A stretch of 64,000 nt of DNA from positions 62,001 through 126,000 of the forward strand of contig JAJZQX010000004.1 in NCBI GenBank assembly GCA_021806645.1. Reading direction: 5' to 3'. The first letter of the stretch is position 1; each line of letters begins with the position of its first letter. This DNA comes from Myxococcales bacterium. GTDB lineage: Bacteria > Myxococcota > Myxococcia > Myxococcales > Anaeromyxobacteraceae. Below the pieces are notes generated by a model. The model saw only the letters and a list, made by a program, of their open reading frames with translations. It was not told the DNA's origin and did no database searches. This document shows, in pieces, positions 30,900 to 45,876 of the stretch. The position numbers and the translations under genes were made by a program.

Positions 30900-32342
30900 T
30901 CAACCGGAACCCCCGCCGGCGCCGCCGCGGCCCCGTCCCGGCACCGGATCGTCACCGGCGTCCAGCGCCGTCACCTCGGCGTCGAGCCAGCCCTCCCCCA
31001 GCGCCACCCGCAGCGGCTGGCCCGGGGCCATGGCCACGCTCCGCGTCACCAGCTTCCCGTCGCTGAGCGCCAAGGCGAAGCCGCGCTTCAGCAGCCGGGC
31101 CACGTTGGCCGGCTCCAGCCGTGCCGAGAGCCCGGCCAGCCGAAGCGCCTCGCGCCGGAAGGTGGCCGCCTGCCACCCCTCGAGCCGCCGCCGCGCCGCC
31201 TCGACCCGGCCTCGCAGCGCCTTGAGCCGCGCCCTCGGCTCGGCCCGGGCCAGGCGCACCCGCAAGGGCTCCAGCCTGGCCCGCCCCGCCTCGACGGGCC
31301 GCAGCGCTCCCGCCTCGGCCCGCCGCGCCAGGTCCTCCAGCCGGTGACGCTGCGTCGAGAGCAGGTGGGTGGGGTCGCCCAGCTCCGCCTGCAGCGCCCG
31401 CAGGTCGCGCCGCCGCCCGTCGACGGCCCCGGTCATGGCCCGGTGGAGCCGCCCGCGCAGCCCAGCCAGCTCCGCCAGCAGGTCGTCCCGGACCGGCGCC
31501 ACCAGCTGCGCCGCGTGCGTCGGCGTGGCGGCCCGGGCGTCGGCCACCAGGTCCGCCACGGTCACGTCGGTCTCGTGCCCGACCGCCGAGACCACCGGCA
31601 CCGGCGAGGCCGCGATGGCGCGGGCCAGGAGCTCGTCGTTGAAGGCCCAGAGGTCCTCGCGCGAGCCGCCGCCGCGCGTCACCACGATCACGTCGGCGCC
31701 GTGGCGCGCCAGCGCCATCACCGCCGCCGCCACCGTCGCCGCCGCCCCCTCGCCCTGCACGCGGCAGGGCGCCACCAGCACCGGCAGCCCGGGGAAGCGG
31801 GTGTGGAGCACTCTCAGGAAGTCGCGCAGGGCCGCGGTGGTGGTGCTGGTGGCCACCCCGACCCGGCGCGGCAGGAACGGCAGCGGCCGCTTGCGCGCCT
31901 CGGAGAGCAACCCCTCCGCGGCCAGCCGCGCCTTCAGCTGCTCGAGCTGCAGCGCCAGCGCGCCCGCGCCGTGCGGCTCCACCCCGGTCGCCACCAGCTG
32001 GTACTTGCCGTGGGGTGGGTAGATCTCGACGCGGCCGTGCGCCACCAGCTCCAGCCCCTCCTCCAGCTCGAAGCGGAGCCTCCGGGCCTGCGCGGCCCAG
32101 AGCACGCAGGGGAGCGTGGCCCCCTCGTCCTTGAGCGTGAAGTAGACGTGGCCGCTCGACTGCACCCGCAGGTTGGCCACCTCACCGCGGACGTGGACGT
32201 CGTCGAAGCGGGGCTCGACGGCGGCCTTGAGCGACTGCGTGAGCTGCAGCACGGTGAGCGGCTGGGCCGGTCCGGCCGGGGTCCGTGGCGCGAACAGGTC
32301 GCCGGTCTCCGTCGCCGGCGGCCGGCGCGGCGGACGGTTCAC
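30900..32342 (-). CDS. xseA: Exodeoxyribonuclease VII large subunit
   Basis: XseA degrades single-stranded DNA bidirectionally. The 480-residue protein has an N-terminal OB-fold (VHVRGEVANLRVQSSGHVYF), a catalytic core with VGVATSTTTAALRDFLRVL, VTRGGGSREDLWAFNDELLA and PVVSAVGHETDVTVADLVAD, and a long helical region that forms the stalk. It closes with LKRGFALALSDGKLVTRSVA, the usual C-terminal block. The GTG at 32342 overlaps the otsB stop (GTGA) and has GAGGGAGGGG upstream, which decides the start over longer frames. Confidence 0.95.
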   Translation of the reverse strand: MNRPPRRPPATETGDLFAPRTPAGPAQPLTVLQLTQSLKAAVEPRFDDVHVRGEVANLRVQSSGHVYFTLKDEGATLPCVLWAAQARRLRFELEEGLELVAHGRVEIYPPHGKYQLVATGVEPHGAGALALQLEQLKARLAAEGLLSEARKRPLPFLPRRVGVATSTTTAALRDFLRVLHTRFPGLPVLVAPCRVQGEGAAATVAAAVMALARHGADVIVVTRGGGSREDLWAFNDELLARAIAASPVPVVSAVGHETDVTVADLVADARAATPTHAAQLVAPVRDDLLAELAGLRGRLHRAMTGAVDGRRRDLRALQAELGDPTHLLSTQRHRLEDLARRAEAGALRPVEAGRARLEPLRVRLARAEPRARLKALRGRVEAARRRLEGWQAATFRREALRLAGLSARLEPANVARLLKRGFALALSDGKLVTRSVAMAPGQPLRVALGEGWLDAEVTALDAGDDPVPGRGRGGAGGGSG

Positions 32343-33112
32343 CGGCCCCTCCCTCTCGCGTGCTGGCGCAGTGAAAGCAGCCGCGCCAGCAGCTCGTCTA
32401 CCCGGACCTGGGACTCCAGCCGCCACGGAGCCAGCGAGCGTCCCGGCCCGACGTGCACGCCCAGCACCAGCGGCATCCCCACCGCGAAGGCGTCCTCGTC
32501 GGTCACGTCGTCGCCGAGGTAGAGCGCCGCGCCCAGCGTCAGCCTGGCCAGCAGGGCCCGGAGCGCGTCTCCCTTGTTGGGAAACTGGCGCGGCAGGATG
32601 TTGAGCACCTTCTTGCCGGCCACCAGCCGCGTCCCGGTGAGCTGGTTGGCGGCGGCGTACGCGGCCTGCTCGGCCCGCCGCCAGGCCCGGTCCAGCCCGT
32701 AGTGGACCGCCAGCGTCGATCGCTTGTCCTCGAAGTAGATGCCGGCGACGCCGGCCAGCGCCGCCTCCAGCTGCCGCCGCCAGCCTCGCACCTGGCGCAG
32801 CACCGCCTCCGGGACCGGCCTGGCGCGCAGGAACTCGAAGCCGTGGTTCCCCACCACGTACGGCGCCACCCCCTCCGTCAGCCGGCGGGTGTGGGTCCAG
32901 CTCCGCCCCGAGACCGCCGCCACCGGGTAGCGGCGCGCCAGGCGGACCAGCAGGTCGCGGGTGGTGCGGCGCATCCCGGCGCCCTCGGGGTCGCGGACCA
33001 CCGGGGCCAGCACGCCGTCGTAGTCGAACGCCAGCAGGACCGGGTTGGGCGCCTCGACGCCGGCGAAGCGCTCGAGGATGGCGCGATGGGAGGGGTGGAG
33101 GATGTCCCGCAT
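32339..33112 (-). CDS. otsB: Trehalose-6-phosphate phosphatase
   Basis: OtsB removes phosphate from trehalose-6-phosphate to give the compatible solute trehalose. The 257-residue HAD enzyme has motif I LLAFDYDGVLAP (nucleophile Asp and acid/base Asp), motif II VAAVSGRS, the cap residues GNHGFEF, and motif IV YLGDDVTDEDAF, with Lys in FPNKGDAL. No otsA (trehalose-6-phosphate synthase) is in the window. A TATCAT -10 is 17 nt upstream. It leads an operon otsB-xseA-xseB-receiver with overlapping stops and starts. Confidence 0.92.
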   Translation of the reverse strand: MRDILHPSHRAILERFAGVEAPNPVLLAFDYDGVLAPVVRDPEGAGMRRTTRDLLVRLARRYPVAAVSGRSWTHTRRLTEGVAPYVVGNHGFEFLRARPVPEAVLRQVRGWRRQLEAALAGVAGIYFEDKRSTLAVHYGLDRAWRRAEQAAYAAANQLTGTRLVAGKKVLNILPRQFPNKGDALRALLARLTLGAALYLGDDVTDEDAFAVGMPLVLGVHVGPGRSLAPWRLESQVRVDELLARLLSLRQHARGRGR

Positions 33113-33193: not shown

Positions 33194-35059
33194 GTGCCCC
33201 GTATCCTTCTCGTCGAGGCGCTCGCAGCGACCCGCGAGATCGTCCAGAAGAGGCTGGTGGATTCCGGATTCGACGTGCTGGTCTCCGAGACCTGCGACGC
33301 GGCGCCCGGGATCTACGCTGCCCAGCGCCCGGACGCCGTGGTGCTGGCCGTCAACTCGGAGGGGGCCGTGGAGGCGGCGCGCCGCCTCCACGAGCTCGAC
33401 CAGCGGCTGGTGCTGGTGGCGCTCGATCACGGCCACCTCGAGGAGCCGCTGGGGGCCGGCGCGGTGGCCCCGCTCCAGGCCGGCGCCTACGTGGCGTCCC
33501 CGCTCGGACGCGAGCTGGCCGATCGGCTCTCTCTCCTCATCGGACAGGCCACCGCCAGTCGCGCCCGTCTCTCGGGAGTGGCGCTGCTCCTCTCCCGGCC
33601 GCCCGCGGCGACCGGCGAGATCCAGCCGGGCGTGGTGGCTCGGCTCATCCACCAGCTCTGGCGCTCCACCAGCGACGGCGTGCTGGTCCTGGAGGGGGAG
33701 GGGCCGGTGCGGCGCCTCTTCTTCCTGCGCGGCTCGCCGGTGGCGGTCGAGTCGTCGGAGCCGGGCGAGGCGCTGGCCGGCTGGTTCAACACCACCGGTC
33801 GCCTCGACGAGACGGCCCGCGACGCCGTGCGGGACGCCATGGCTGGCGGGCTCTCGGCCGGCGCCGCCCTCATCGCCGCCGGCGTGGTGGAGCCGGGCGA
33901 AGGGCTGCTGGCCGCGCTGCGGGCGCACGTCCGGTCGCTGCTCATCACCAGCGTCGGCGCCCGGGGCGGCCAGTGGCGCTTCCACCTCGGCGACGAGTTC
34001 ACCGCCCAGCTCCAGACCGTGGAGGTGCTGCCGCTGGCGCCGCTGCTGGAGGGGGCGCGGGCCCACCTGACGGTGAAGCACTTCGCCGACGCGTTGAAGG
34101 CCGTGCTGGTCGCCATCCCCACCCGCACCGTCGAGTGCCAGAAGCTCGTCGCGCTGGTGGGCCTCGGCATGGCCGACCAGCGGCTGCTGCAGGCGCTCGA
34201 CGCGCGCCCCACCACCAGGGCCTTCCTCGAGGCCCGCAAGGCGGACCTGAAGGAGGCGCTCTCGCTCCTCTGGTTCCTCTCGCTCATCGGCGCCGTGGTC
34301 TTCCACGAGAGCGCCCCGGAGCCGGGCCCCGGCATGACCGCCGCCGCCGACACCGCACGCGCCCGCCCCCCGCTGCCGTCCGACCGCGCCGAGGCGGTCC
34401 GGCAGGCGGCCATGCGCATCCTCCCGGGCACCTACTTCCACGCGCTCGGGGTCGACATCGCCGCCGACTCGGAGGAGATCGAGCGCGCCTACCACGAGGT
34501 GTCGGAGCGCTTCCACCCCGACGCCTTCGCCGACTGGGAGGTGGGCGACCTCAACGATCTCCTGCTCTCGGTGCAGGAGAAGGTGTCGGCGGCCCACCGC
34601 GTCCTCTCCACCGAGGAGAAGCGCCGGCAATACCTCTCCTTCCTGTTGCTCAAGTTCGAGCTGGCCGGCGTGCGCCGCCCGGGCATCGTCCTCGACGCCG
34701 AGGTGGCCCTGAAGCGGGGCGAGCGAGCACTGCGGGCGCGTCGCGGCGACGACGCGGTGGCGGCCTTGCGCCTGGCGGCCGACCTCAACCCGCGCGAGCC
34801 GGAGTACCTGGCCATGCTCGGCTTCGCCGAGCTGCAGGCGACCGGCCGGCCGGTCGGGGCGCGGTCCGGCGCGGCCATCGTCAGCGCGGGGCGGGCCCTG
34901 GAACTCGACCCCGGCCACCATCGGGCGCTGGTGGTGCTGGCGCTGGCCGAGGAGGCGGCGGGGCGGCCCGAGGCGGCCCACGCGGCGGCGCTGCGCGCCA
35001 TCGAGGCCCACCCGGGCAGCGAGCTGGCCAGGCGGGTGCTGGCCTCGCTTCGACCGTGA
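33194..35059 (+). CDS. Pseudo-receiver/PATAN (DUF4388)/J-domain/TPR protein
   Basis: This 621-residue protein is a four-part signalling or scaffolding fusion. Residues 1-120 look like a receiver (PRILLVEALAATREIVQKRL), but the acidic pocket is VEAL and the phospho-Asp position is Ala52 (DAVVLAVN), so it cannot be phosphorylated in the usual way. Residues about 145-300 form a DUF4388/PATAN-like domain (GVLVLEGEGPVRRLFFLRGS). Around 410-500 is a J-domain with the HPD tripeptide intact (H441-P442-D443). TPR-like helices follow. Such proteins are typical of myxobacteria and include motility and polarity factors; a specific role is not known. The GTG start has TAGAAT 6 nt upstream and no Shine-Dalgarno. 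Confidence 0.8.
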   Translation: MPRILLVEALAATREIVQKRLVDSGFDVLVSETCDAAPGIYAAQRPDAVVLAVNSEGAVEAARRLHELDQRLVLVALDHGHLEEPLGAGAVAPLQAGAYVASPLGRELADRLSLLIGQATASRARLSGVALLLSRPPAATGEIQPGVVARLIHQLWRSTSDGVLVLEGEGPVRRLFFLRGSPVAVESSEPGEALAGWFNTTGRLDETARDAVRDAMAGGLSAGAALIAAGVVEPGEGLLAALRAHVRSLLITSVGARGGQWRFHLGDEFTAQLQTVEVLPLAPLLEGARAHLTVKHFADALKAVLVAIPTRTVECQKLVALVGLGMADQRLLQALDARPTTRAFLEARKADLKEALSLLWFLSLIGAVVFHESAPEPGPGMTAAADTARARPPLPSDRAEAVRQAAMRILPGTYFHALGVDIAADSEEIERAYHEVSERFHPDAFADWEVGDLNDLLLSVQEKVSAAHRVLSTEEKRRQYLSFLLLKFELAGVRRPGIVLDAEVALKRGERALRARRGDDAVAALRLAADLNPREPEYLAMLGFAELQATGRPVGARSGAAIVSAGRALELDPGHHRALVVLALAEEAAGRPEAAHAAALRAIEAHPGSELARRVLASLRP

Positions 35060-35067
35060 TCCGGCGG

Positions 35068-36024
35068 TCAGCCTGGCGAGTGCCCGGTGAGGCCATTCTG
35101 GACCACGTCGGCCAGCGCGGCGATGAAGTCGGGGCGCGTCCCCAGGGCCGGCACGCGCAGGTAGAGCGAGGCGCCGGCCCTGGTCGCCGCGTCCTTCGCC
35201 AGGATGTCCAGGTCGTAGAGCGTCTCGAGGTGCTCGGAGACGAAGGCGATGGGGACGGTCACCACCGCCCGGCCGCCGGCGTTCCGCTCCAGGAACCGCA
35301 CGGTGTCGGGACCGAGCCACCGGGCCGGCCCGACCTTCGACTGGTAGGTGATCTGCCAGTTGGTCACCCCGGCCCGGCGGGCCGTCTCGCGCGAGGTGAT
35401 CTCGACCTGGCGCGGATAGGGATCTCCCCTCCTCACCTGGCTCATGGGCAGCCCGTGGGCGCTGAAGACCACCAGCGCCTCGGCGCGGAGCGTCGGCGGC
35501 ACCTCGGCCAGCACCTCGCGAAGCGCCGCCGCCGAGGCGTCGAGGTACCCGTCGTGGTCGTGCCAGGAGGAGATCTCGACCAGCGGCAGCTCTCTTGGCC
35601 AGACCCGGCGCAGCTCGACCAGCGAGCTGAGGGTGGTGGCATTGGCCCACTGCGGGTAGAGCGGTAGCGCCACGGCCCGGTCGGCGCCGCGCTCCAGCGC
35701 CGCGCGCACCCCCTCCTCGGTGGAGGGGTGGCCGCAGCGCATGGCGAGGTGGCAGGAGTACCCGGGACCGAGCGCCGCCTCCAGCGCCCGGGCCTGCGCC
35801 TCGGTCCCCGCGACCAGCGGGCTCCCGCAGCCGATTAGGGCGTACTTCTCGGCCGACGAGGGGGCTCGCAGTCGGGAGACGAGCCGCGCCAGCAGCGGAC
35901 GGAACGGGCCCAGGGGGGCGGTGACGACGAGCGGGTCGGAGAAGAGCTCGTAGAGGTACGGCTCCACCTCCTCGAGGTTCCGGGGACCACCCAGGTTCAT
36001 CAGGAAGACGGCGGTGTGCGCCAT
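35068..36024 (-). CDS. hemH: Ferrochelatase
   Basis: HemH inserts Fe2+ into protoporphyrin IX. The 318-residue protein opens MAHTAVFLMNLGGPRNLEEV and has CGSPLVAGTEAQ, HLAMRCGHPST, the active-site His segment VVFSAHGLPMSQV, TYQSKVGPARWLGP and the closing FVSEHLETLYDLD with the conserved Glu/His. Length and blocks are typical of the bacterial enzyme. It is third in hemE-hemN-hemH, 18 nt after hemN, and ends 8 nt from the convergent PATAN-J gene. Confidence 0.96.
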   Translation of the reverse strand: MAHTAVFLMNLGGPRNLEEVEPYLYELFSDPLVVTAPLGPFRPLLARLVSRLRAPSSAEKYALIGCGSPLVAGTEAQARALEAALGPGYSCHLAMRCGHPSTEEGVRAALERGADRAVALPLYPQWANATTLSSLVELRRVWPRELPLVEISSWHDHDGYLDASAAALREVLAEVPPTLRAEALVVFSAHGLPMSQVRRGDPYPRQVEITSRETARRAGVTNWQITYQSKVGPARWLGPDTVRFLERNAGGRAVVTVPIAFVSEHLETLYDLDILAKDAATRAGASLYLRVPALGTRPDFIAALADVVQNGLTGHSPG

Positions 36025-36042
36025 GGTGACGGGGCTCCGGGC

Positions 36043-37419
36043 TCAGACGGTTCGCGAGAACTTCTTGGCGCCGTCGGGCTTCTGCAGGTAGGCGTCGAAG
36101 AGCATGGCGACGTTGCGGACCAGGAGCTGGCCGAGCGGCGTCACCGCCAGCAGCCGGCCGTCGAAGGTCACCAGCCCGTCGGCCTCGAGCTCACCGACCC
36201 CGGCCTGGAGCGAGGCGGCGATGGCGGCGCGCGCCGGCTCGCCGAACCGGGCCTTCACCTCGTCGAGGTCGAGCCGCAGCTGGCACATGACCCGGTTGAT
36301 GACGAAGCGGCGGAGCACGTCGTCGTCGCTCATGGCGGCGCCGCGCTCCACCGGGATGACGCCGGCCTCGACCCGGTCGCTCCAGTCCTTCAGCTTGTGC
36401 GAGTTCTGGGCGTAGGCGCCGCCGATGTCCGAGATGGAGCTCATGCCGAAGGCCACCGTGTCGGTGGCCGGACGGACGGTATAACCCTGGAAGTTGCGGA
36501 ACATGGTGCCGGCCGACTGGGCGCGCGCCAGCTCGTCGCTCTCCAGCGCGAAGTGGTCGAGCCCGATTAGCCGGTAACCGGCCGCGGTGAAGGCCTCCAC
36601 GGTCTGCAGGAAGAGCTCGACCCGCTGCTCGGCCCTGGGGAGCGCCTCCTGCGGCAGCAGCCTCTGGTGTGGCTTGAACCAGGGGGTGTAGGCGAAGCCG
36701 AAGACCGCCATCCGGTCGGGGTGGATGCGGATGATCCGCTCCAGCGTGTCCTTCCAGGTGGCCCCGGTCTGGTAGGGCAGGCCGTAGATGAGGTCGAGGT
36801 TGACGCCGCGGAAGCCGGCGGCGCGCGCCGCGGCCACCAGGTCGGCGGTCTCCTTCTCCCCCTGGATGCGCCCCACCGTCTCCTGCACCTTCTGGTCGAA
36901 GTCCTGCACGCCCATGGAGATGCGGTTGAAGCCGAGCCGGCCCATCAGGTCGATCTGCGACCTGGTGGTGATGGCCGGGTCGATCTCGATGGCCAGCTCG
37001 GCGTCGGGCAGGAACTGGAAGTGGCGGGCCAGGATGGCGTGGCAGCGGGCCAGCTGCTTCTCGTCGAGGAAGGTGGGCGTGCCGCCGCCCCAGTGGAGCT
37101 GGGAGACGGTGCGGCGCGTGGGCAGGTGGGCGGCCACCAGCGCCACCTCCTTCTCCAGCACGTCCAGGTAGGCGTCGGCGCGGCTGCGGTCGTGGGTGGC
37201 GATGACGTTGCAGCCACAGAAGCGGCACATCTCGCGGCAGAACGGCAGGTGAACGTAGATGGAGAGCGGGCCGCCGGCCGCCTCGGCGCGCGCCAGGTGG
37301 CCGAGGTACTGCGGCGCCTTGAAGTCGTCCTTCCACTCGGGTGCGGTCGGGTAGCTGGTGTAGCGCGGCCCCGGCCGGTCGTACTTCTTGATCAGGTCCC
37401 AGGAGGGAATCCGCAGCAC
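36043..37419 (-). CDS. hemN: Oxygen-independent coproporphyrinogen III oxidase
   Basis: HemN is the radical-SAM enzyme that decarboxylates coproporphyrinogen III without oxygen. The 458-residue protein starts with the family-specific KYDRPGPRYTSYPTAPEW; the radical-SAM cluster is CREMCRFCGC (Cys-x3-Cys-x2-Cys, plus the adjacent Cys that distinguishes true HemN). LHWGGGTPTFLDEKQ, DPAITTRSQIDLMGRLGFNR and FGFAYTPWFKPHQRLLP follow. These features separate it from HemW. Its presence suits a facultative or anaerobic lifestyle. It lies between hemE and hemH. Confidence 0.96.
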   Translation of the reverse strand: MLRIPSWDLIKKYDRPGPRYTSYPTAPEWKDDFKAPQYLGHLARAEAAGGPLSIYVHLPFCREMCRFCGCNVIATHDRSRADAYLDVLEKEVALVAAHLPTRRTVSQLHWGGGTPTFLDEKQLARCHAILARHFQFLPDAELAIEIDPAITTRSQIDLMGRLGFNRISMGVQDFDQKVQETVGRIQGEKETADLVAAARAAGFRGVNLDLIYGLPYQTGATWKDTLERIIRIHPDRMAVFGFAYTPWFKPHQRLLPQEALPRAEQRVELFLQTVEAFTAAGYRLIGLDHFALESDELARAQSAGTMFRNFQGYTVRPATDTVAFGMSSISDIGGAYAQNSHKLKDWSDRVEAGVIPVERGAAMSDDDVLRRFVINRVMCQLRLDLDEVKARFGEPARAAIAASLQAGVGELEADGLVTFDGRLLAVTPLGQLLVRNVAMLFDAYLQKPDGAKKFSRTV

Positions 37420-37426
37420 GGGAGCC

Positions 37427-38473
37427 TCACTTCCAGCGGAAGGCGTGGACCGCGTCGACCACCGCCTTGACGTTCTCGGGCGGCGTCCCCACCTGGATGC
37501 CGTGGCCCAGGTTGAAGATGTAACCGGGGGCCGGCCCGGCCGCCCGGCAGACGCCGAGCGCCTTGTCCACGCCGGCCTGGGTGGGGCCGAGCAGCACCGT
37601 GGAGTCGAGGTTGCCCTGGATGGCCACGCCCGGGGCGCGGCGGCGGGCCTCGTCGATGGGGATGCGCCAGTCGACCGAGACCACGTCGAAGCCGAGGCCG
37701 GCCAGCCGCTCCAGGTGGCCGCTCATGCCGGTGGCGAAGAAGATCGAGGGCACGCCGGTCTTCTTCACCGCCTCGGCGATGCGGGTGAGGTAGGGGAAGG
37801 AGAACCGCTCCAGGTCCTCCCGATCCAGCTCGCCGAGCCAGCTCTCGAAGACCTGGGCGGCGTGGGCGCCGGCGGCGATCTGCTCCTCGATCTGGACGAT
37901 GGCGGCCTGGGTGAGCTTCTCGAAGAGCGCGTGGGCCGCCTCCGGCGCGGCGTAGAGCATGGTCTTGAGCCGGTTGAAGCCCTGGCTGCCGCCTTCCACC
38001 ACGTAGCTGGCCACCGTGAAGGGACCGCCCACGAAGCCGATGAGCGGCACCCGTCCAGCCAGCCCGGCCTTGATGGCCCGGATGCCGTCCAGCACGTACT
38101 TCAGGTCGCGGCTGGGGACCGGCACCTTGAGCGCGTCGACGTCGGCCCGGGTCCGGACCGGGTTGGAGATCCTCGGGCCGCCGTCCCCCTTCCCCTTCTC
38201 GCCCTTCTCGAAGGTGAGATCGAGCCCAATGGCCGGCAGGTGGACGAGGATGTCGGAGAAGAGGATGGCGGCGTCGAAGCCGAACTCGTCGATGGGCGCG
38301 CAGGTGACCTGGGCGATCAGCTCCGGCGAGCGGCAGAGCTCGAGGAAGCCGACCTGCTGGCGCACGGCCCGGTAGCTGGGCTGGTAGCGGCCGGCCTGGC
38401 GCATCATCCAGACGGGGAGGCGGTCAACGGGGCGGCGGCGGCAGGCCTCGAGGAAGCGGTGGGTCGTGGGCAT
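37427..38473 (-). CDS. hemE: Uroporphyrinogen decarboxylase
   Basis: HemE decarboxylates the four acetate chains of uroporphyrinogen III. The 348-residue protein has PVDRLPVWMMRQAGRYQPSY (substrate-binding Arg residues), FGFDAAILFSDILVH (catalytic Asp), GFVGGPFTVASYVVEGG, QVFESWLGELD and YIFNLGHGIQVGTPPENV (conserved His). I chose ATG 38473, which gives MPTTHRFLEACRR. There is no Shine-Dalgarno; TAAGAT lies 11 nt upstream, so the leader may be only a few bases. It is the first gene of the heme operon, 197 nt downstream of the DUF167 gene. Confidence 0.96.
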   Translation of the reverse strand: MPTTHRFLEACRRRPVDRLPVWMMRQAGRYQPSYRAVRQQVGFLELCRSPELIAQVTCAPIDEFGFDAAILFSDILVHLPAIGLDLTFEKGEKGKGDGGPRISNPVRTRADVDALKVPVPSRDLKYVLDGIRAIKAGLAGRVPLIGFVGGPFTVASYVVEGGSQGFNRLKTMLYAAPEAAHALFEKLTQAAIVQIEEQIAAGAHAAQVFESWLGELDREDLERFSFPYLTRIAEAVKKTGVPSIFFATGMSGHLERLAGLGFDVVSVDWRIPIDEARRRAPGVAIQGNLDSTVLLGPTQAGVDKALGVCRAAGPAPGYIFNLGHGIQVGTPPENVKAVVDAVHAFRWK

Positions 38474-38670
38474 GGAGGGGGCGCATCTTAGTCGATTTGC
38501 CGCGTCGGCGCCCAATCGCGTCGGGGCCAGTCTCTAGCGGCCACGACGCAAGATCCGGACTACGTCTCAGGGTGCGGAAACGTGTGCTTGCCGAGATCAC
38601 GGCCGGGATCCCGCGAGCACCCTGGGCGTTGCGTGAGGCGATCCGCCTGAGGCAGGGCTCGAGTTGCTGG

Positions 38671-39012
38671 CTAGAGGCTTGCTCCGCCCGAAGGCGGCGC
38701 GAATGGCAGCAGCGCCGCCACCACCGCTGCCGCCGTCACGCCCGTCACCCGCACCGTCTTGCGCCGGCCGGTCTCGCCGCGCAGCACCTCGACGTCCGCC
38801 TTCTTGACCCGTATGGCTCGGGCCAGGAACTCCACCAGCGCGGCATTGGCCTCGCCGTCCACCGGCGGCGCGGCCAGCTGCACCTTGAGCCGGCCGTCGT
38901 GCTCTCCGACCACGCGGGTCCGGGAGGCGCGCGGCTGGACCAGCAGCTCCAGGATGAGCGCCCCGCCCTGCTCCTCGCGCAGCCAGGCCGGCTCGACGCC
39001 CGCCGCCGGCAT
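38671..39012 (-). CDS. DUF167 (YggU-family) protein
   Basis: The 113-residue protein has the compact alpha/beta DUF167 pattern: [40 protein letters not shown] and [22 protein letters not shown] with TGRRKTVRV. The function of this widespread family is not established. The ATG at 39012 overlaps the lpxI stop in TGATG, so it is translated with the lipid A genes. The end is hydrophobic Ala/Val-rich and then Pro/Gly. Confidence 0.88.
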
Positions 39013-39815
39013 CAGCGGAGCCCGACCACGGCGATCCCCGCCTTGTCGGCCCGGCGGACCAGTTCCTCGACGTCCATCACCAGCGTGGCGCCCGCCTCGA
39101 TGGCCAGCACGCGACAGCCGGCCTTCTTCATCGAGTCGATGGTCGATGGCCCGACCGCCGGCAGGTCGAAGCGCCGGTCCTGCTGCGGCTTGACCGCCTT
39201 CACCACCACCGCGCCGCCCCTGGCCAGCTCGCCGCCGCGCCGGATACAGGCGTCGGTCCCCTCCAGCGCCTCCACCGCCACGCCCACCCGCTCCTTCACC
39301 ACCACGGTCTGGCCCAGGTCGAGCCGGCCGACGGCGCGGGCCAGCTCCAGCCCGTAGCGGGCGTCGGCCCACTCGGCCTCGGTCGGCTGGTGCCGCCCCA
39401 GCACGCCCTCTCGCGCCAGCGCCTCGGCGAGGAAGGGGGTCGGGTCAATCACCGGCATGCCGCGCTCCTCCAGCATGGTGGCGATCATCCGCAGCAGGTT
39501 GTCGTCCGAGCGGATGGCCACCTTGGCCATCAGCTCGAGCCCCACCGCGTCGGGGAGGGCGTCCACGAAGAACCGCTTCTTGGTGATGGCGCCGAGCAGC
39601 ACCGACCGGGTGGCCCCGCCGGCCCGGAGCGCCTCGACGATCTTCCCGAACTGCCCCAGCTTCACCCAGGTGATGGCGTCGGCGTGGCGCTCCAGCGCCG
39701 GGTCGGTCTGGTTGACGTGGGCCACCGCCACCACGCGGTGGCCGGAGCGCCGGGCCGCCGCCGCGAAGAGGGCCGGAAAGCCGCCGCCGCCCGCGATGAG
39801 GCCGATGGTGGTCAT
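39012..39815 (-). CDS. lpxI: UDP-2,3-diacylglucosamine pyrophosphatase LpxI
   Basis: LpxI hydrolyses UDP-2,3-diacylglucosamine to lipid X and UMP, replacing LpxH in many alpha- and deltaproteobacteria. The 267-residue product starts [20 protein letters not shown], with later conserved blocks [39 protein letters not shown] (family DDxLLR), [20 protein letters not shown] then DACIRRGG, and [21 protein letters not shown] chose the ATG at 39815; a GTG six codons upstream is possible. It lies 21 nt after lpxA. Confidence 0.92.
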
Positions 39816-39836
39816 GGGCTCGGGCCGGGCCACCGG

Positions 39837-40610
39837 TCAGCGCGTGATGCCGCGCTTCGACCCCTCGATGAAGGTGATCAGGTGGGCCACCTCGGGGTAC
39901 GGCCCCAGCTCGGACTTGAGCTGCGCCAGCGCCTCGGCCGCCTGGAGGCCGGAGCGGAAGTAGATCTTGAAGGCCTGCTTGACGCGGCCGACCTGGTCCT
40001 CGGTCATCCCCGAGCGCTGCATGCCGATGGTGTTGAGGCCGGTCAGCTCGCCGCGCGCGCCGTTGGTCATGCAGTAGGGGGCCACGTCCATGGCCACGCC
40101 GGTCATGCCGCCGATGAAGGCGAGCCTGCCGACGCGCGAGAACTGGTGGGCCGCCGAGAGCCCGCCGAAGTGGACGTGGTCCTCGAGGACGACGTGACCG
40201 GCCAGCGCCACCGAGTTGGCGATGATGGCGCCGTCGCCGACGACGCAGTCGTGGCCGACGTGGCTGTTGGCCATGAAGAGGCAGCCGTTGCCGATGCGGG
40301 TGACGCCCTGGTCCTGCACCGTCCCGGCGTTGACGGTGACGTACTCGCGGAAGGTGTTGTCGTCGCCGATGACGGTCTCGGTCGGCTCCCCACGGTACTT
40401 GAGGTCCTGGGGGATGCCTCCGATCACGGCGCCGGAGAAGACCCGGTTTCGTGCGCCCAGCGTGGTGTGCCCGGTGACCATGCCGTGCGGAGCCACGGTG
40501 CAGCCGGGGCCCATCCGGACCTGCGGCCCGATCCAGGCGAAGGGGCCGACCTCGCAGCTCGGGTCGACCCGGGCGCCCGCCTCGACGATCGCGGTGGGGT
40601 GAATGGCCAT
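39837..40610 (-). CDS. lpxA: Acyl-ACP--UDP-N-acetylglucosamine O-acyltransferase
   Basis: LpxA transfers an R-3-hydroxyacyl chain to UDP-GlcNAc, the first lipid A step. The 257-residue protein is a left-handed beta-helix of hexapeptide repeats (IHPTAIVEAGARVDPSCEVG, IGNGCLFMANSHVGHDCVVG) with the catalytic His in NSHVGHD and GGIPQDLKYRGEPT typical of the family. The helical C-terminus (TGLNTIGMQRSGMTEDQVGR) completes it. The acyl-length ruler residue cannot be judged reliably by eye. It is 12 nt after fabZ. Confidence 0.96.
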   Translation of the reverse strand: MAIHPTAIVEAGARVDPSCEVGPFAWIGPQVRMGPGCTVAPHGMVTGHTTLGARNRVFSGAVIGGIPQDLKYRGEPTETVIGDDNTFREYVTVNAGTVQDQGVTRIGNGCLFMANSHVGHDCVVGDGAIIANSVALAGHVVLEDHVHFGGLSAAHQFSRVGRLAFIGGMTGVAMDVAPYCMTNGARGELTGLNTIGMQRSGMTEDQVGRVKQAFKIYFRSGLQAAEALAQLKSELGPYPEVAHLITFIEGSKRGITR

Positions 40611-40622
40611 GGTCGGTCCAGC

Positions 40623-41099
40623 CTACGCCGGCGTTTCCCGGTCCGCGAGCATGGCCATGTACTCGGCCTCGGCCACCACCTGCCCGTCCACCAGGGCCTG
40701 GCCGGCCTGCTTCCAGACCGCGCCCTTGTGCCTGGTGACCTGGACCAGCAGCTCGAGCCGGTCGCCGGGGACCACCGGCTTGCGGAAGCGCGCCCCGTCG
40801 ATGCCCATCAGGTAGGTCACCTTGCGCCGCAGCTCCTCGGGAGGCAGCGACAGGATGGCCAGCAGCGCGCAGGCCTGGGCCAGCGCTTCCAGGATGAGCA
40901 CGCCCGGCATGACCGGGTGACCGGGGAAGTGCCCCACGAAGAACGGCTCGTTCATGGTCACCGCCTTGATCGCGGTGAGCCGGTCGTCCGGGCTCCAGGA
41001 GGTGACCCGGTCCACCAGCAGGAACGGCGGGCGATGCGGCAGCAGCCGCTGGATGACCTCCACGTCGAGCACCTGCCCGGGAACCAGATCTCCGCTCAT
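40623..41099 (-). CDS. fabZ: 3-hydroxyacyl-ACP dehydratase FabZ
   Basis: FabZ dehydrates 3-hydroxyacyl-ACP in fatty-acid elongation and competes with LpxA/LpxD for the same substrate. The 158-residue hot-dog-fold protein has LLPHRPPFLLVDRVTSW, the catalytic-His segment NEPFFVGHFPGHPVMPGVLI with the active-site Glu following in LEALAQ, and KFR-like GIDGARFRKPVVPGD. The ATG at 41099 overlaps the lpxD stop by 4 nt (ATGA), so the two are co-translated. Confidence 0.95.
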   Translation of the reverse strand: MSGDLVPGQVLDVEVIQRLLPHRPPFLLVDRVTSWSPDDRLTAIKAVTMNEPFFVGHFPGHPVMPGVLILEALAQACALLAILSLPPEELRRKVTYLMGIDGARFRKPVVPGDRLELLVQVTRHKGAVWKQAGQALVDGQVVAEAEYMAMLADRETPA

Positions 41100-42151
41100 G
41101 GCTTCTCCTCTTCTTCCAGTTTCGCCACCCTGCGCATCAGGTCGCGCAGGTCCCGGCGCAGCTCGTGGAGCCGGCCGAAGGCCACGGCGTTGCGGGCCCA
41201 GCGCCGCTCGTCGATGGCCGGGAGGCCCGCCACCCGCTGCCCGGCCGGGACGTCGTGCGCCACGCCTGACTGCGCCGCGATGTTCACCCGGTCGCCGATC
41301 TCGATGTGGCCGTTGATGGCCACCTGCCCCCATACCGCCACGCCCATGCCCATGCGGGTGGATCCGGCCACGCCCGCCTGCCCGGCCACGATGCAGAGCG
41401 GACCCACCTCCACGTTGTGGGCGATCTGGACCAGGTTGTCGATCTTGGCGCCGCGCCCGATCCGGGTGACGCCGAGGGTGGCCCGGTCCACGCAGGTGTT
41501 GGCGCCGACCTCGACGTCGTCCTCGACGACCACGATGCCGGCCTGCGGGATCTTGAAGTGGCGCGGTCCCTGGCCCTCTCCCTCCATGTCGAGCGCGTAG
41601 CCGAAGCCGTCCGAGCCGATGACGCAGCCGGGCTGCAGCGCCACCCGGTCGCCCAGCACGCACCGCTCCCGGACCACCACGTTCTGGTAGAGCAGGCAGT
41701 CGGCGCCGATCCTGGCGCCCGCGCCCACCTGCACCCCGGGGTGGAGCACGGTGCGCGGTCCGATCACCGCCCCGGGCCCCACCGAGACCAGCGGCCCGAC
41801 CTGCGCCGAGGCGTCTACCCGGGCCGTGGGATCCACCTCGGCCCGCGCCGAGATCCCCGGCACCGCCACCGCCGCGGGGTTGAAGAGCGTGGAGATCCTG
41901 GCGAAGGCCAGGTACGGATTGGAGGAGCGCAGCAAGCTCCTTCCGCCGCCCGCCGCCTGGTCGCGCGCCACGACGACCGCGCCGGCCTTCGAAGCCTCGA
42001 AGGCGGCGCGGTACTTCTTGTTGGCGAAGAAGGAGACCTGGCCGGGCCCAGCCTCCTCCAGCGGGGCCACCCCGGTGACAAGGAGCGACCCGTCCCCGGA
42101 CACCTCGCCGCCGACCAGCGCGGCGAGCTCGGCGAGGGTTTGGGCGGTCAC
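41096..42151 (-). CDS. lpxD: UDP-3-O-(3-hydroxyacyl)glucosamine N-acyltransferase
   Basis: LpxD adds the second hydroxyacyl chain in lipid A synthesis. The 351-residue protein has the N-terminal uridine-binding domain (VTGVAPLEEAGPGQVSFFAN), a hexapeptide-repeat beta-helix (VGPGAVIGPRTVLHPGVQVG), and the catalytic-His segment IDNLVQIAHNVEVG, with VIGSDGFGYA preceding it. A C-terminal coiled region ends EEEEKP. The GTG start at 42151 is 9 nt after the skp stop. Confidence 0.95.
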   Translation of the reverse strand: MTAQTLAELAALVGGEVSGDGSLLVTGVAPLEEAGPGQVSFFANKKYRAAFEASKAGAVVVARDQAAGGGRSLLRSSNPYLAFARISTLFNPAAVAVPGISARAEVDPTARVDASAQVGPLVSVGPGAVIGPRTVLHPGVQVGAGARIGADCLLYQNVVVRERCVLGDRVALQPGCVIGSDGFGYALDMEGEGQGPRHFKIPQAGIVVVEDDVEVGANTCVDRATLGVTRIGRGAKIDNLVQIAHNVEVGPLCIVAGQAGVAGSTRMGMGVAVWGQVAINGHIEIGDRVNIAAQSGVAHDVPAGQRVAGLPAIDERRWARNAVAFGRLHELRRDLRDLMRRVAKLEEEEKP

Positions 42152-42160
42152 GCCTCCACC

Positions 42161-42748
42161 CTACTTCTTGGCCGGGGCCGTGGCTGGAGCCGGCGCCGCG
42201 CCCTTCTTGGCCGGGGCGGCGGCCCCCCTGCCGGCCCCGTAGCGGGCGTTGTACTTGCGGACCAGCTCGTTGGTGACGTCGAGGGACGGCGGCGCGTAGA
42301 GGACGGTGTTGCGGTCGAGGACCATGGTGAAGCCCTCGGCGTCGGCCAGCTCGCGGACCATCGCGATCATCTTGTCGAAGAGGCCGCGAGTCACCTCGCG
42401 CTCCCGGCCGGCCAGGTCCTTCTGCAGCCCGACGAAGAACTGCTGCACCTCGACCTTCTTGCGGTCGATCTCGGCCGCCTTGGCCGCCTTGGCGTCCGGC
42501 GCCATGACCAGGGCCTGCTTCTGGAAGTCGGCGTCCAGCCTCTTCACCTCGTCGGTGCGCTGGTCCAGCTGCTTCTGCTTCTCGTCGAATTCCCTCTTGA
42601 GCTGGGCCTTGGCGGCCTTGCCCTCGTCGATCTCCTCGAGGGCGCGCTGCAGGTCTACGTACCCGAGCTTGAGGTCGGCGGCGAGGGCCGTCAGTGGGAC
42701 AAGGGCCAGCGCCACGGTGGCGACGGCGGTGCGAAGGGTCATGGACAT
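42161..42748 (-). CDS. skp: Periplasmic OmpH/Skp-family chaperone
   Basis: Skp holds unfolded outer-membrane proteins in the periplasm for delivery to BamA. The 195-residue precursor has a signal peptide (TLRTAVATVALALVPLTALA, cleavage near ADLKLG), the family start LGYVDLQRALEEIDEGKAAK and long coiled-coil arms (residues about 45-120). It ends in a Lys/Pro/Ala-rich tail (AAPAKKGAAPAPATAPAKK) that is unusual. GGGAGG precedes the ATG at 42748. It lies between bamA and lpxD, the standard arrangement. Confidence 0.92.
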   Translation of the reverse strand: MSMTLRTAVATVALALVPLTALAADLKLGYVDLQRALEEIDEGKAAKAQLKREFDEKQKQLDQRTDEVKRLDADFQKQALVMAPDAKAAKAAEIDRKKVEVQQFFVGLQKDLAGREREVTRGLFDKMIAMVRELADAEGFTMVLDRNTVLYAPPSLDVTNELVRKYNARYGAGRGAAAPAKKGAAPAPATAPAKK

Positions 42749-42769
42749 GGGTTCCTCCCGAACCTGGAG

Positions 42770-45154
42770 CTAGAAGAAGTTGCCGATGGTGAACTGGAAG
42801 TCAATGGGTTGGTCGATGTAGATGCCGGACCCCCCCGGATCCTTGCGGCGGTTGAGGGGGATGCCCCACTCGAAGCGCAGGGGACCCATGGGGCTGAACC
42901 AGCGGAAGCCGAAGCCGACCGACTTGTAGAGCGAGTACGGGACGGAGGCGTCCTTCCAGACCCCGGCCGCGAAGACGTTGCCGGCGTCGGCGAAGAGCAC
43001 GCCCTTGATGCCGGCGCTCTGGACCAGCGGGAACTCGAGCTCGAGGTTGAGGATGGCCTGCTTGTTCCCGCCCGTGGCGATGGTGGCGAGCGCGGCCAAC
43101 GGGTCGTAAGGGTTGCGCGGCACCTGCTCGGTCGGCGAGATGGAGAGCATCCGGTACCCTCGCACCGAGTTGATGCCGCCGGCGTAGTAGTTCTCCGACA
43201 TGGGCACCGCGTGGTCGGCGTCCCAGTTGCGAAGCACGCCGAGGGTCAGCTTGGCGCGCGCCACCACCCCGAAGAGGAGCGGCCGGTAGACGCGGGCATC
43301 CACGGTGTACCGGGAGAAGAGGTTGACCTTCTGCCCGAAGACCGCGCTGGGGGCCAGCAACGGCGGCGCGTACTCGGCGCTGGCCGTGAGGAAGAAGCCC
43401 GAGGTCGGGAAGATGCGGTTGTCGCGCTTGTCCCACTGCCAGGAGAGGCGGACCGAGCTGGTGGACCCCGACCGGTACTGGTTGTAAAGGACGTACTGGG
43501 CGTCGCCGGACACCGAGACGTACTCGTTGGTGTAGGTCCCGAAGACCCGCATGTCCTCGAGGCGGCGGGCGAACGACCAGAAGGGGGCCAGGCCGGAGAG
43601 CTCGTAGCCCCAGGTCATGTTGCCGCCCACCGCCCGCCGGTTGAAGCTGGTGTAGTAGCTCTCGGTGGCGTAGAGGTCGAAGGCGAAGGTCCAGCGGGTG
43701 TCGAGGAAGTAGGGCTCCACGAACTGGACCTGGCCGAGCTGCCGGATCGACGACCACTGGATCTGGAGGCTCAACGTCTGGCCCCAGCCGAAGAAGTTCT
43801 GCTGCGAGATCTGGCCGGTGAGGATGAAGTTCTCGTAGCTGGAGAAGCCGGCGCCGAGCTGGAAGGAGCCGGTGGCCTTCTCCTTCACCTCGACGGTGGC
43901 GACCACCAGGTCCTCGGCGCTCCCCTTCTTGGTGGTGATCTCCACGGTCTCGAAGAAGCCGAGCGCCATGACCCGCCCCTTGGAGGTGCGCATGGCCGCG
44001 CCGCTGAAGGTCTCGCCCTCGTAGAAGCGCAGCTCGCGCCGCACCACCTTGTCGCGGGTCTTCTCGTTCCCGACCACCTCGATCTTCTCCCAGCGGCACT
44101 TGATGCCGGGCTGGACGTCGAAGGTGAGGTCGATGATCCGGGTCTTGTCGTCCACGTGAGTCTGGGGCGTGACGTTGGCGTAGGCGAAGCCGCGGTCCTT
44201 GAAGATGTCGCCGATGGCGAAGAGATCCTGGCCCACCTTGGACCGGGAGAAGAGCGCGGAGGACCTGGTCAGGAGGATGCGCCGCAGCAGCGGCTCCTCG
44301 CCGAGCAGCTCGCCGGTGAAGTTCACCTTGCCGATCGAGTACTGCTCGCCCTCCTCGACGGGGATGGCGACGAAGAGGAAGCGGCGGTCCGGCGAGAGGG
44401 CGATGGACGGGCGGCCCACCTTCACGTTGACGAAGCCCTGGTCCATGTAGGCCATGCCGATGGCGGCCAGGTCCCGCTGGAACATGTCCTCGCGGAAGGT
44501 GCCCTGCGACCCGAAGACCGAGAGCAGCCCGCCCTCCTGGGTCAGCATCACGCCGCGCAGCTCCTGGCTGGAGAGCCGCTGGTTGCCGTGGAACCGGATC
44601 TCCTTCACCAGCACCTTGGCCTTCTCGTCCACCACGTAGCGGACGGCGACCTGGTTGTCGGGGAGCTGCTCGAGCTTGTAGTTGACCTCGGCGAGGTAGA
44701 AGCCCTTCTCGACGTACTTCTCCTGGATCCTCTTGACGTCCTTCTTCACCGCCACCAGGTCGAGGATGGTGAAGGGCTTCACCTCCACGGTGTCCTTGAG
44801 ATCCTCCTTGGAGAGCTCGTCGTTGCCGACGATGGTGGCCTCGCGGACGGTCGGGCGCTCGGTGACCTTGAAGACCAGCACCGGGCGATCGGCCTTTCCC
44901 TCGACCTCGACCACCACGTCGGAGAAGAAGCCGAGCTTCATCAGCGCCCGGACGTCGGCCTCGACCCGGCGGGGGTCGTAGAGGGCCCCCTTCTTGGTGA
45001 CGGTGGCCTTGATTGTGTCCACCTCGACGCGCCGGTTCCCCTCCACCTTGACGCCGGCCACCACGACCGGCTCCGCGGCGCGGACGGACGTGGCCAGCGG
45101 CGCCAGCGCGAGCGCGGCGGCCAGCAACCAGCCGGTGAGGGGGCGGTGCTTCAC
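42770..45154 (-). CDS. bamA: Outer membrane protein assembly factor BamA
   Basis: BamA is the Omp85 core of the outer-membrane beta-barrel assembly machine. The 794-residue precursor has a signal peptide (HRPLTGWLLAAALALAPLAT, cleavage after VRAA), five POTRA domains (for example EPVVVAGVKVEGNRRVEVDT; VLVKEIRFHGNQRLSSQELR), and a 16-strand barrel with NYYAGGINSVRGYRM, the loop-6 VRGY motif. It ends in a Phe (FQFTIGNFF), as barrel substrates do. I chose the GTG at 45154 because it starts the signal peptide cleanly; a TTG at 45193, with GGAGAG upstream, would add 13 residues and overlap lolD. skp follows. Confidence 0.95.
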   Translation of the reverse strand: MKHRPLTGWLLAAALALAPLATSVRAAEPVVVAGVKVEGNRRVEVDTIKATVTKKGALYDPRRVEADVRALMKLGFFSDVVVEVEGKADRPVLVFKVTERPTVREATIVGNDELSKEDLKDTVEVKPFTILDLVAVKKDVKRIQEKYVEKGFYLAEVNYKLEQLPDNQVAVRYVVDEKAKVLVKEIRFHGNQRLSSQELRGVMLTQEGGLLSVFGSQGTFREDMFQRDLAAIGMAYMDQGFVNVKVGRPSIALSPDRRFLFVAIPVEEGEQYSIGKVNFTGELLGEEPLLRRILLTRSSALFSRSKVGQDLFAIGDIFKDRGFAYANVTPQTHVDDKTRIIDLTFDVQPGIKCRWEKIEVVGNEKTRDKVVRRELRFYEGETFSGAAMRTSKGRVMALGFFETVEITTKKGSAEDLVVATVEVKEKATGSFQLGAGFSSYENFILTGQISQQNFFGWGQTLSLQIQWSSIRQLGQVQFVEPYFLDTRWTFAFDLYATESYYTSFNRRAVGGNMTWGYELSGLAPFWSFARRLEDMRVFGTYTNEYVSVSGDAQYVLYNQYRSGSTSSVRLSWQWDKRDNRIFPTSGFFLTASAEYAPPLLAPSAVFGQKVNLFSRYTVDARVYRPLLFGVVARAKLTLGVLRNWDADHAVPMSENYYAGGINSVRGYRMLSISPTEQVPRNPYDPLAALATIATGGNKQAILNLELEFPLVQSAGIKGVLFADAGNVFAAGVWKDASVPYSLYKSVGFGFRWFSPMGPLRFEWGIPLNRRKDPGGSGIYIDQPIDFQFTIGNFF

Positions 45155-45189
45155 GGAGCCGCGGAATCTAATGCATGGGGAGGCGTGGC

Positions 45190-45876
45190 TCAAAGGCTTT
45201 CTCTCTCCAGCCGTCCGCCCGAAAGGTGGAGGCGGCGTGGCAGGGTCCGCGCCAGCTGCTCGTTGTGGGTGACCACCACCGCGGTGATGCCGAGCCGCGA
45301 GTTGAGGTCGGCGATGAGGGCGTGGATCCCCTCGGCGGTCCTGGGGTCGAGGTTTCCGGTCGGCTCGTCGGCCAGCAGCAGCCGGGGCTTCAGGCAGAGC
45401 GCCCGGGCCAGCGCCACCCGCTGCTGCTCCCCGCCGGAGAGCTCCCCGGGCCGGTGGTGGAGCCGGTCGCCCAGCCCCACCTGCGCCAGCATCTCCTCGG
45501 CGCGCGCGTAGGCGTCGGCGCGGGCCAGCCGCCTGATCAGCCCGGGCATGGCGGCGTTGTCGAGCGCGGTGAACTCCGGGAGCAGGTGGTGGCTCTGGAA
45601 GACGAAGCCGATGTTCCGGTTGCGGAAGGTGGCCAGGGCCTCCTCCCCCGCGGCGAAGGCGTCGGCGCCATCGTAGTAGACCCGGCCGGCGCTGGGCGAG
45701 TCGAGCGTGCCGAGCACGTTGAGGAAGGTGCTCTTGCCCGAGCCGGACGGCCCGGTCAACGCCACCAGCTCACCGGACGCGATCTCCAGCGAGAGGTCGC
45801 GGAGCACCTCGAGCCGCTTCTCGCCCATGACGTAGGTCTTGCCGAGCCCCTCGACCCGGATGAACGGCGCGGCCAT
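45190..45876 (-). CDS. lolD: Lipoprotein-releasing ABC transporter ATPase LolD
   Basis: LolD powers extraction of outer-membrane lipoproteins from the inner membrane. The 228-residue ABC protein has Walker A GPSGSGKS, the family LGTLDSPSAGRVYYDG, a Q-loop in FVFQSHHLLPEFTALDN, the ABC signature LSGGEQQRVALARAL and Walker B LLLADEPTGNLD, with the H-loop in VVVTHNEQLA. The SHHLLPEF segment is typical of LolD rather than MacB. The ATG at 45876 overlaps the permease stop (TGATG). Confidence 0.95.
   Translation of the reverse strand: MAAPFIRVEGLGKTYVMGEKRLEVLRDLSLEIASGELVALTGPSGSGKSTFLNVLGTLDSPSAGRVYYDGADAFAAGEEALATFRNRNIGFVFQSHHLLPEFTALDNAAMPGLIRRLARADAYARAEEMLAQVGLGDRLHHRPGELSGGEQQRVALARALCLKPRLLLADEPTGNLDPRTAEGIHALIADLNSRLGITAVVVTHNEQLARTLPRRLHLSGGRLERESL

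Follow-up and report, generated by a model that had tools for sequence, protein, structure and literature searches.

The window, i.e., the whole stretch of 64,000 nucleotides that was analysed, contains at positions 33194 to 35059 of the plus strand an open reading frame with a GTG start codon, which encodes a protein of 621 amino acids composed of a pseudo-receiver, a PATAN domain, a small alpha-beta segment, a J-domain and a TPR domain. The GC content of this frame was 0.95 at the third codon position versus 0.50 at the second, and orthologues could be aligned to its product with identities from 76% down to 35%; it was therefore considered a real gene. Its divergent neighbour encodes a trehalose-phosphatase, here called otsB (32339 to 33112, minus strand), while on the other side the gene converges with ferrochelatase (hemH), a HemN-type radical SAM protein and uroporphyrinogen decarboxylase (hemE; 35068 to 38515, minus strand). 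Beyond these hem genes, about 4 kb from the gene, are located lpxI (below the cut-off of its model), lpxA, fabZ, lpxD, an open reading frame of 195 amino acids without a family match, and bamA (39012 to 45193, minus strand). Because the hem genes intervene and the genes converge, the gene forms no operon with the lpx genes in the window.

The four-part composition given in the preliminary description was corroborated by Pfam searches, AlphaFold modelling and fold comparisons. The AlphaFold model (27 sequences) had a mean pLDDT of 87 and a pTM of 0.44, indicating that the parts were well modelled and their arrangement was not. The pseudo-receiver occupies residues 1-122 (33194 to 33559, plus strand). 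Pfam gave no receiver match on the 621-residue protein; the Myxococcus xanthus orthologue matched Response_reg over the cut-off (E 2e-11), and positions 1-124 of the alignment profile matched a solved receiver (E 1.5e-15). The model showed the (beta-alpha)5 order at residues 3-123, and residues 1-122 matched CheY-like chains with Z of about 18, so that the N-terminus does resemble a receiver. The PATAN domain (DUF4388) spans approximately residues 139-300 (33608 to 34093, plus strand) according to secondary structure and to a Pfam match at residues 148-289 (E 4e-6; 27.3 bits versus a cut-off of 25), and it scored 34-50 bits in the four orthologues that were scanned. Fold comparisons of this part gave no informative match, and the assignment comes from the Pfam profile. 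It is followed by a helical segment with two short strands (residues 301-372; 34094 to 34309, plus strand), which is winged-helix-like by eye only.

The J-domain comprises residues 412-490 (34427 to 34663, plus strand), with a Pfam DnaJ match over the cut-off at residues 414-480 (E 9e-9). Its HPD tripeptide (residues 441-443; 34514 to 34522, plus strand) was modelled between helices 426-439 and 453-471, as in a J-domain, and in a second model (residues 128-495) the region matched solved J-domains with Z up to 9.8, including the J-domain of DnaK-bound DnaJ (5nro; Z 7.7, rmsd 1.6, 63 residues). Two unnamed PHROGs also matched over this region. The TPR domain, of about three TPRs (residues 498-618; 34685 to 35047, plus strand), was assigned on fold: Pfam TPR models reach residue 618, each below its cut-off, the model contains seven helices at residues 500-618, and residues 497-621 matched TPR co-chaperones with Z up to 19.6 for the TPR domain of SGT. 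At the level of the fold, this part matched carboxylate-clamp TPRs (HOP, SGT), in which five residues bind EEVD; L506 and E510 presumably sit where the clamp has Lys and Asn. An analogy with LapB, a regulator of LpxC, was dropped; the protein had no Pfam match to the LapB zinc ribbon, and the 28-position zinc-ribbon profile was uninformative, as it matched 10 of 14 controls.

The receiver domain and its relatives

The catalytic columns of the receiver, read against a profile of relatives, hold E8, A9, A52, D78 and S102. The phospho-Asp is therefore lost, as the preliminary description had noted, the column being occupied by Ala52 (codon at 33347 to 33349, plus strand). The loss of the acidic pair that it also claimed applies to one member only: the second acid is gone (A9), while the first, which is Glu or Asp in phosphorylatable relatives, is kept as E8. 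Two further catalytic positions differ as well, with Asp (D78) in place of Ser/Thr and Ser (S102) in place of Lys. The same pattern was found in the orthologues with a lost phospho-Asp, hereafter clade A: every row covering the phospho-Asp column had Ala, Gly or Ser, all rows had Asp at column 78, and column 102 was mostly Asp and otherwise Ser, Thr or Asn; one orthologue (L115) keeps both acids. Outside clade A, 51 of the 54 rows with a receiver match, some of them duplicates, had (E/D)-D-D-S-K. The protein of the window thus lacks the complete set of a phosphorylatable response regulator (acid pair, phospho-Asp, Ser/Thr and Lys) and has the features of a pseudo-receiver, namely a receiver fold without the phospho-Asp that is conserved as such. 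The phospho-Asp column was also lost in L105, L117 and L118, which lie outside clade A and have Ala, Gly and Glu there, respectively; this suggests, from sequence, repeated loss in the wider family.

Selection was estimated from dN/dS, obtained by simple counting, for five close pairs and one more distant pair, the window protein versus L003. In the close pairs, the receiver gave values of 0.05-0.49 and the J-domain values of 0.03-0.25; the distant pair gave 0.81 and 0.26, respectively. In each of the six pairs, the J-domain had the lowest value or shared it. The values in the close pairs indicate that the receiver is kept and not decaying, although it evolves faster than the J-domain. Judged by these sequence comparisons, it is a maintained pseudo-receiver under purifying selection in the close pairs. 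An alternative is that the receiver would still be a switch, reading a ligand, a cation or a protein instead of phosphate through a new acidic pocket formed by E8, D78 and often Asp102. In the orthologue alignment A2, E8, D78, H81, L82, G87 and Y99 are invariant, and the frequent Asp at column 102 would suit such a pocket. However, the window protein itself has Ser at 102 and Ala at 52, and the conservation may reflect folding or docking; we consider a switch of this type very improbable.

Other Myxococcota proteins have the same REC-PATAN-J-TPR order with a phosphorylatable receiver. They are related to clade A over the PATAN, J and TPR parts and differ in having the full catalytic set in most rows and a longer chain. 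In a maximum-likelihood tree built on the J-domain and TPR part only, a branch supported at 100/100 separated the 43 receiver-lost rows from the others, and the states of receiver and J-domain coincided with this one well-supported split between clade A and its same-architecture relatives; the tree is unrooted and long branches meet in it, which is a warning for its reading. It leaves out 21 rows that were same-genome duplicates or short at one end, as well as L104, L105, L107, L114, L126 and L137, for which the script returned no J motif, and its 35 rows called intact include L022, without a receiver match, and L117 and L118, with Gly and Glu at the phospho-Asp column. From its being the receiver standard, we infer that the complete catalytic set was ancestral. 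Nine rows, eight from family f7 and one from f3, made up a separate group and had a complete receiver with HSD (eight rows) or HAD (one row) in place of HPD.

Two further observations were made among the relatives. The f7 proteins with a complete receiver and HSD (L023, L025-L030 and L120) are a mirror image of the window protein, while L024 keeps both the complete receiver and HPD. In the genome from which the window comes (contig C13; L066, 5920-9984), a PATAN-J-TPR protein without a receiver adjoins a REC-PATAN-TPR protein without a J-domain, an arrangement that looks like the four-part architecture divided between two genes.

The J-domain and the Hsp70s of the genome

The J-domain was compared, in the site numbering of E. 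coli DnaJ, among 46 distinct orthologues or between the 43 clade-A tree rows and the 35 other rows with HPD. HPD was present in 43 of the 46 orthologues and HPE in the other 3. The docking helix II preceding it was altered in charge. Site 22 was Glu in all 43 clade-A rows versus Lys or Arg in 32 of the 35 other HPD rows, which include the phosphorylatable relatives, and site 36 was basic in 1 of the 46 orthologues versus 35 of 35. Site 27 was Glu in 41 of the 46 orthologues, and at site 26 there was His in 35 and Arg in 5, with Arg or Lys absent in 41. In the window protein, sites 22, 26 and 27 are E430, H434 and E435; H434 thus stands in place of the basic residue of DnaK-type co-chaperones, and A444 occupies site 36, where a basic residue commonly follows HPD, which is a weak feature. 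Site 26 is likewise not basic, and mostly Phe, in the relatives whose receiver is competent, so this lack is not special to clade A. Over the 14 residues ahead of the HPD His, net charge averaged -1.1 for clade A versus +0.7 for the other rows; the same stretch carried +3 in two DnaJ-type domains of the window's genome and 0 to +3 in five further J-domains.

These changes bear on two statements of the preliminary description, that the J-domain is intact and that the protein can stimulate the ATPase of DnaK. The first holds for the HPD and the fold, and not for the Hsp70-docking charges of helix II. The second is not safe to assume, since helix II is re-charged, with sites 22, 26 and 27 altered in the orthologues, and since, in the accessible part of a mutational study, all J-domains examined were impaired when their basic residue 26 was replaced, some only partly (PMC1906734). 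The same part reports that K36A was tolerated in one chimera (PMC1906734). Recognition between J-domains and Hsp70s is described as electrostatic and co-evolving in the portion available of another paper (PMC7289447). With a re-charged helix II, the housekeeping DnaK is not an obvious partner.

The genome from which the window comes had eight J-domain matches, 13 PATAN matches and eight Hsp70 matches in profile searches, each of the latter covering at least 492 of 599 profile positions. Of these large Hsp70 matches, four adjoin a J-domain match, whereas the other four have none next to them. As a candidate partner, an Hsp70 with a complementary basic J-facing strand was looked for and was found in none of the eight, which had net charges of -1 to -3 over 13 residues by a crude proxy; this counts against a simple charge-swap partner. 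On contig C23 (36782-38649; L067), one Hsp70 match contains a single in-frame TGA and is followed 71 bases on by a J-domain match in another frame; these could be two paired genes, or else an Hsp70 that is broken or misassembled.

It is conceivable that the J-domain no longer engages any Hsp70 and that the protein serves purely as a scaffold, both of its signalling folds being silent. The inverted or lost contact charges, the lack of a complementary strand among the eight Hsp70s and the HPE of three orthologues would fit this, as would the related group of nine rows that still keeps the domain with HSD or HAD. However, HPD is retained in nearly all orthologues and the J-domain is the most constrained part, or tied for it, in every pair compared. 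We know of no role of HPD other than the stimulation of Hsp70. A scaffold of this kind is therefore regarded as rather doubtful.

Distribution and gene neighbourhood

The architecture was searched across the Myxococcota, as the preliminary description had proposed. By profile search, clade-A proteins were present in 79 of 195 genomes, all of one class, including two (G094 and G101) in which the match was cut at a contig end. Clade A and the phosphorylatable relatives occurred together in 6 of the 195 genomes, clade A only in 73, the relatives only in 60 and neither in 56, where the relatives were counted with a single query at E 1e-60 and some of the proteins counted lack a receiver (e.g., L022). 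The corresponding Fisher p values, 2.5e-11 by genome and 0.03 over 46 genera of the order, assigned by hand, are uncorrected for relatedness and are not used as evidence here.

In the Anaeromyxobacteraceae (f1), the gene is accessory. Between hemH and otsB it was cleanly absent in four collinear relatives (G011, G015, G020 and G005); in G007, xseA is followed directly by hemH, and G004 is not collinear. In G013, the slot between hemH and otsB contains a shorter protein that aligns to residues 3-366 of the window protein, and G016 has a similar front-half protein at or near the slot. Both have Gly at the phospho-Asp column, as read by eye, and end before the J-domain; the receiver was over the Pfam cut-off in G016 and just below it in G013, while PATAN was below the cut-off in G013 (E 0.002) and was not found in G016. 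In these two genomes, the first half can thus persist without the chaperone half. Front-half homologues without J-domain and TPR are located at L167 (1085-2020) and L168 (2205-3176).

The neighbourhood of the gene differed among families. In the 28 loci of Myxococcaceae/Archangiaceae type, msbA was downstream in 27, the edges of the matches being separated by 4-37 bp, and the remaining locus, which has only 664 bp of downstream sequence, shows a fragment there. Upstream, lpxB was found on the other strand in all 25 loci with upstream sequence, within 44-109 bp in 23 of them, and the gene of these bacteria sits between lpxB, which is divergent, and msbA. Family f10 has lpxB, the gene and then lpxI-lpxA-fabZ-lpxD-...-bamA. 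The window, L034 and L035, all of f1, have the lpx genes on the far side of hemE. No lpx genes were found within 8 kb in A. oryzae (L032, f1), and L031 and L033 (f1) had too little sequence for lpx neighbours; in f2, f3 and f9, no lpx-type neighbours were seen in the stretches available, which for f9 comprise 1.6 kb downstream only. Three families, f1, f4 and f10, thus show the linkage, with differing gene orders; the gene is next to lpxB in two of these families and probably forms an operon with msbA in one. L044, from a record titled Comamonas sp., has a Myxococcus-type locus (gene, lpxB and msbA), and the tree places it with M. xanthus; the record is probably mislabelled or contaminated.

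Among the phosphorylatable relatives, ten loci of 20 kb gave no match to the lpx set except a weak dxs match in one, and 57 shorter loci gave one weak msbA-type match. Among the loci compared, the lipid A linkage was thus seen only in clade A, where it occurs in three of six families. In eight of the ten loci (L173 and L175-L181), the relatives instead have a neighbour from one gene cluster, of which the one member tested with Pfam is a patatin-like phospholipase.

The location of the gene hints at the envelope rather than at polarity. Clusters of essential genes can carry bystanders, and the linkage might be a positional accident, with a function unrelated to the envelope. The families and the A. 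oryzae locus without nearby lpx genes and the accessory status in f1 would agree with an accident, which is quite possible, although the recurrence of the linkage in three families in differing arrangements, and the lack of more than weak lpx-set matches at the loci of the relatives, speak against it.

The preliminary description had suggested chaperone recruitment to a localised complex, by comparison with non-phosphorylated receivers of myxobacterial polarity systems. In this model, the pseudo-receiver would bring the housekeeping DnaK to a motility complex, at the pole or at another defined site, in the manner of FrzS or of the PATAN regulators of PilB. The analogy draws on the interaction of the FrzS pseudo-receiver with SgmX, as given in the accessible text of PMC11580455, and on that of the PATAN response regulator PixE with PilB1, as cited in the accessible text of a review (PMC7690835). 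Co-occurrence could not discriminate here: a PilM profile matched 194 of 195 genomes, and also controls (e.g., B. subtilis), whereas the gene is in 79. Helix II, without Arg or Lys at site 26 in most orthologues and with Glu at site 22 and mostly at 27, does not favour DnaK; the neighbourhood that recurs between families concerns lipid A and outer-membrane assembly, not motility; and the resemblance to FrzS does not go beyond the type of domain. A polar complex served by DnaK therefore appears decidedly unlikely.

A predicted chaperone adaptor and its likeness to known systems

The reading preferred here, which predicts function from sequence and to which we assign a probability of about 40%, is that the protein is a phosphorylation-independent chaperone adaptor for a dedicated Hsp70. 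In this adaptor, the pseudo-receiver and PATAN domain would form a constitutive docking unit, the J-domain would activate a dedicated, orphan Hsp70 rather than the housekeeping DnaK, and the TPR domain would hold a client or partner. Going by location only, the client or site may be part of the synthesis or export of lipid A/LPS, or of the assembly of the outer membrane. Recruitment without phosphorylation, as the preliminary description had envisaged, is reasonable for a maintained pseudo-receiver joined to a J-domain that keeps HPD. Against the adaptor stand the missing complementary Hsp70, the HPE of three orthologues, the accessory nature of the gene and the retention of both acids in L115. 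The readings considered are not all mutually exclusive.

In a broader and unlikely version, a single ancestral branch would have lost the phosphorylation site and reversed the charge of the docking helix, giving rise to a private co-chaperone of an orphan Hsp70 in a lipid A/MsbA-dependent step, while a parallel branch would have taken the opposite course, keeping the receiver and losing HPD. Whichever applies, the family offers a natural series of proteins with both modules competent, with a dead receiver and a re-charged J-domain, with a competent receiver and a lost HPD, and with receiver and PATAN alone. It makes two ideas testable: that a private Hsp70 partner can arise through charge reversal in a J-domain, and that the synthesis of outer-membrane lipids is served by a chaperone adaptor of its own.

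Searches of the literature for DnaJ together with PATAN, DUF4388 or pseudo-receiver, which mostly did not extend to subscription papers, returned no description of the protein or of the REC-PATAN-J-TPR architecture, and its parts can be compared with several known systems. FrzS of M. xanthus likewise has a receiver without the residues critical for phosphorylation, and 2gkg, the entry named FrzS, was among the PDB matches of the profile (E 5e-12), where phosphorylatable receivers scored as high. FrzS differs in having a coiled coil, and PATAN, J and TPR domains are not mentioned for it in the accessible text of PMC11580455, which does list MXAN_3211 and MXAN_4965 as M. xanthus PATAN proteins co-occurring with SgmX. 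In the cyanobacterial PixE, PixG and LsiR, PATAN is also joined to a CheY-like receiver; these proteins are linked to phototaxis and pili, and the part of the review available mentions no J-domain for them (PMC7690835).

The chaperone half also has counterparts. P58IPK/DNAJC3 combines a J-domain and TPRs in one chain and, according to the accessible portion of PMC3143134, has little positive charge near HPD, but it is a protein of the ER with nine TPRs ahead of the J-domain and without a receiver or PATAN. In specialised pairs of the Hsc20-Ssq1 type, docking residues likewise vary and co-evolve with particular Hsp70s, as far as the available text of PMC7289447 goes; helix II remains basic there, whereas it is acidic on average in clade A. 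Four M. xanthus proteins in which PilZ is combined with either DnaK or DnaJ, described in the accessible part of PMC8316039, share with the window protein the joining of a signalling domain to a chaperone module, the signalling domain being PilZ in those proteins and receiver-PATAN in the protein analysed here.
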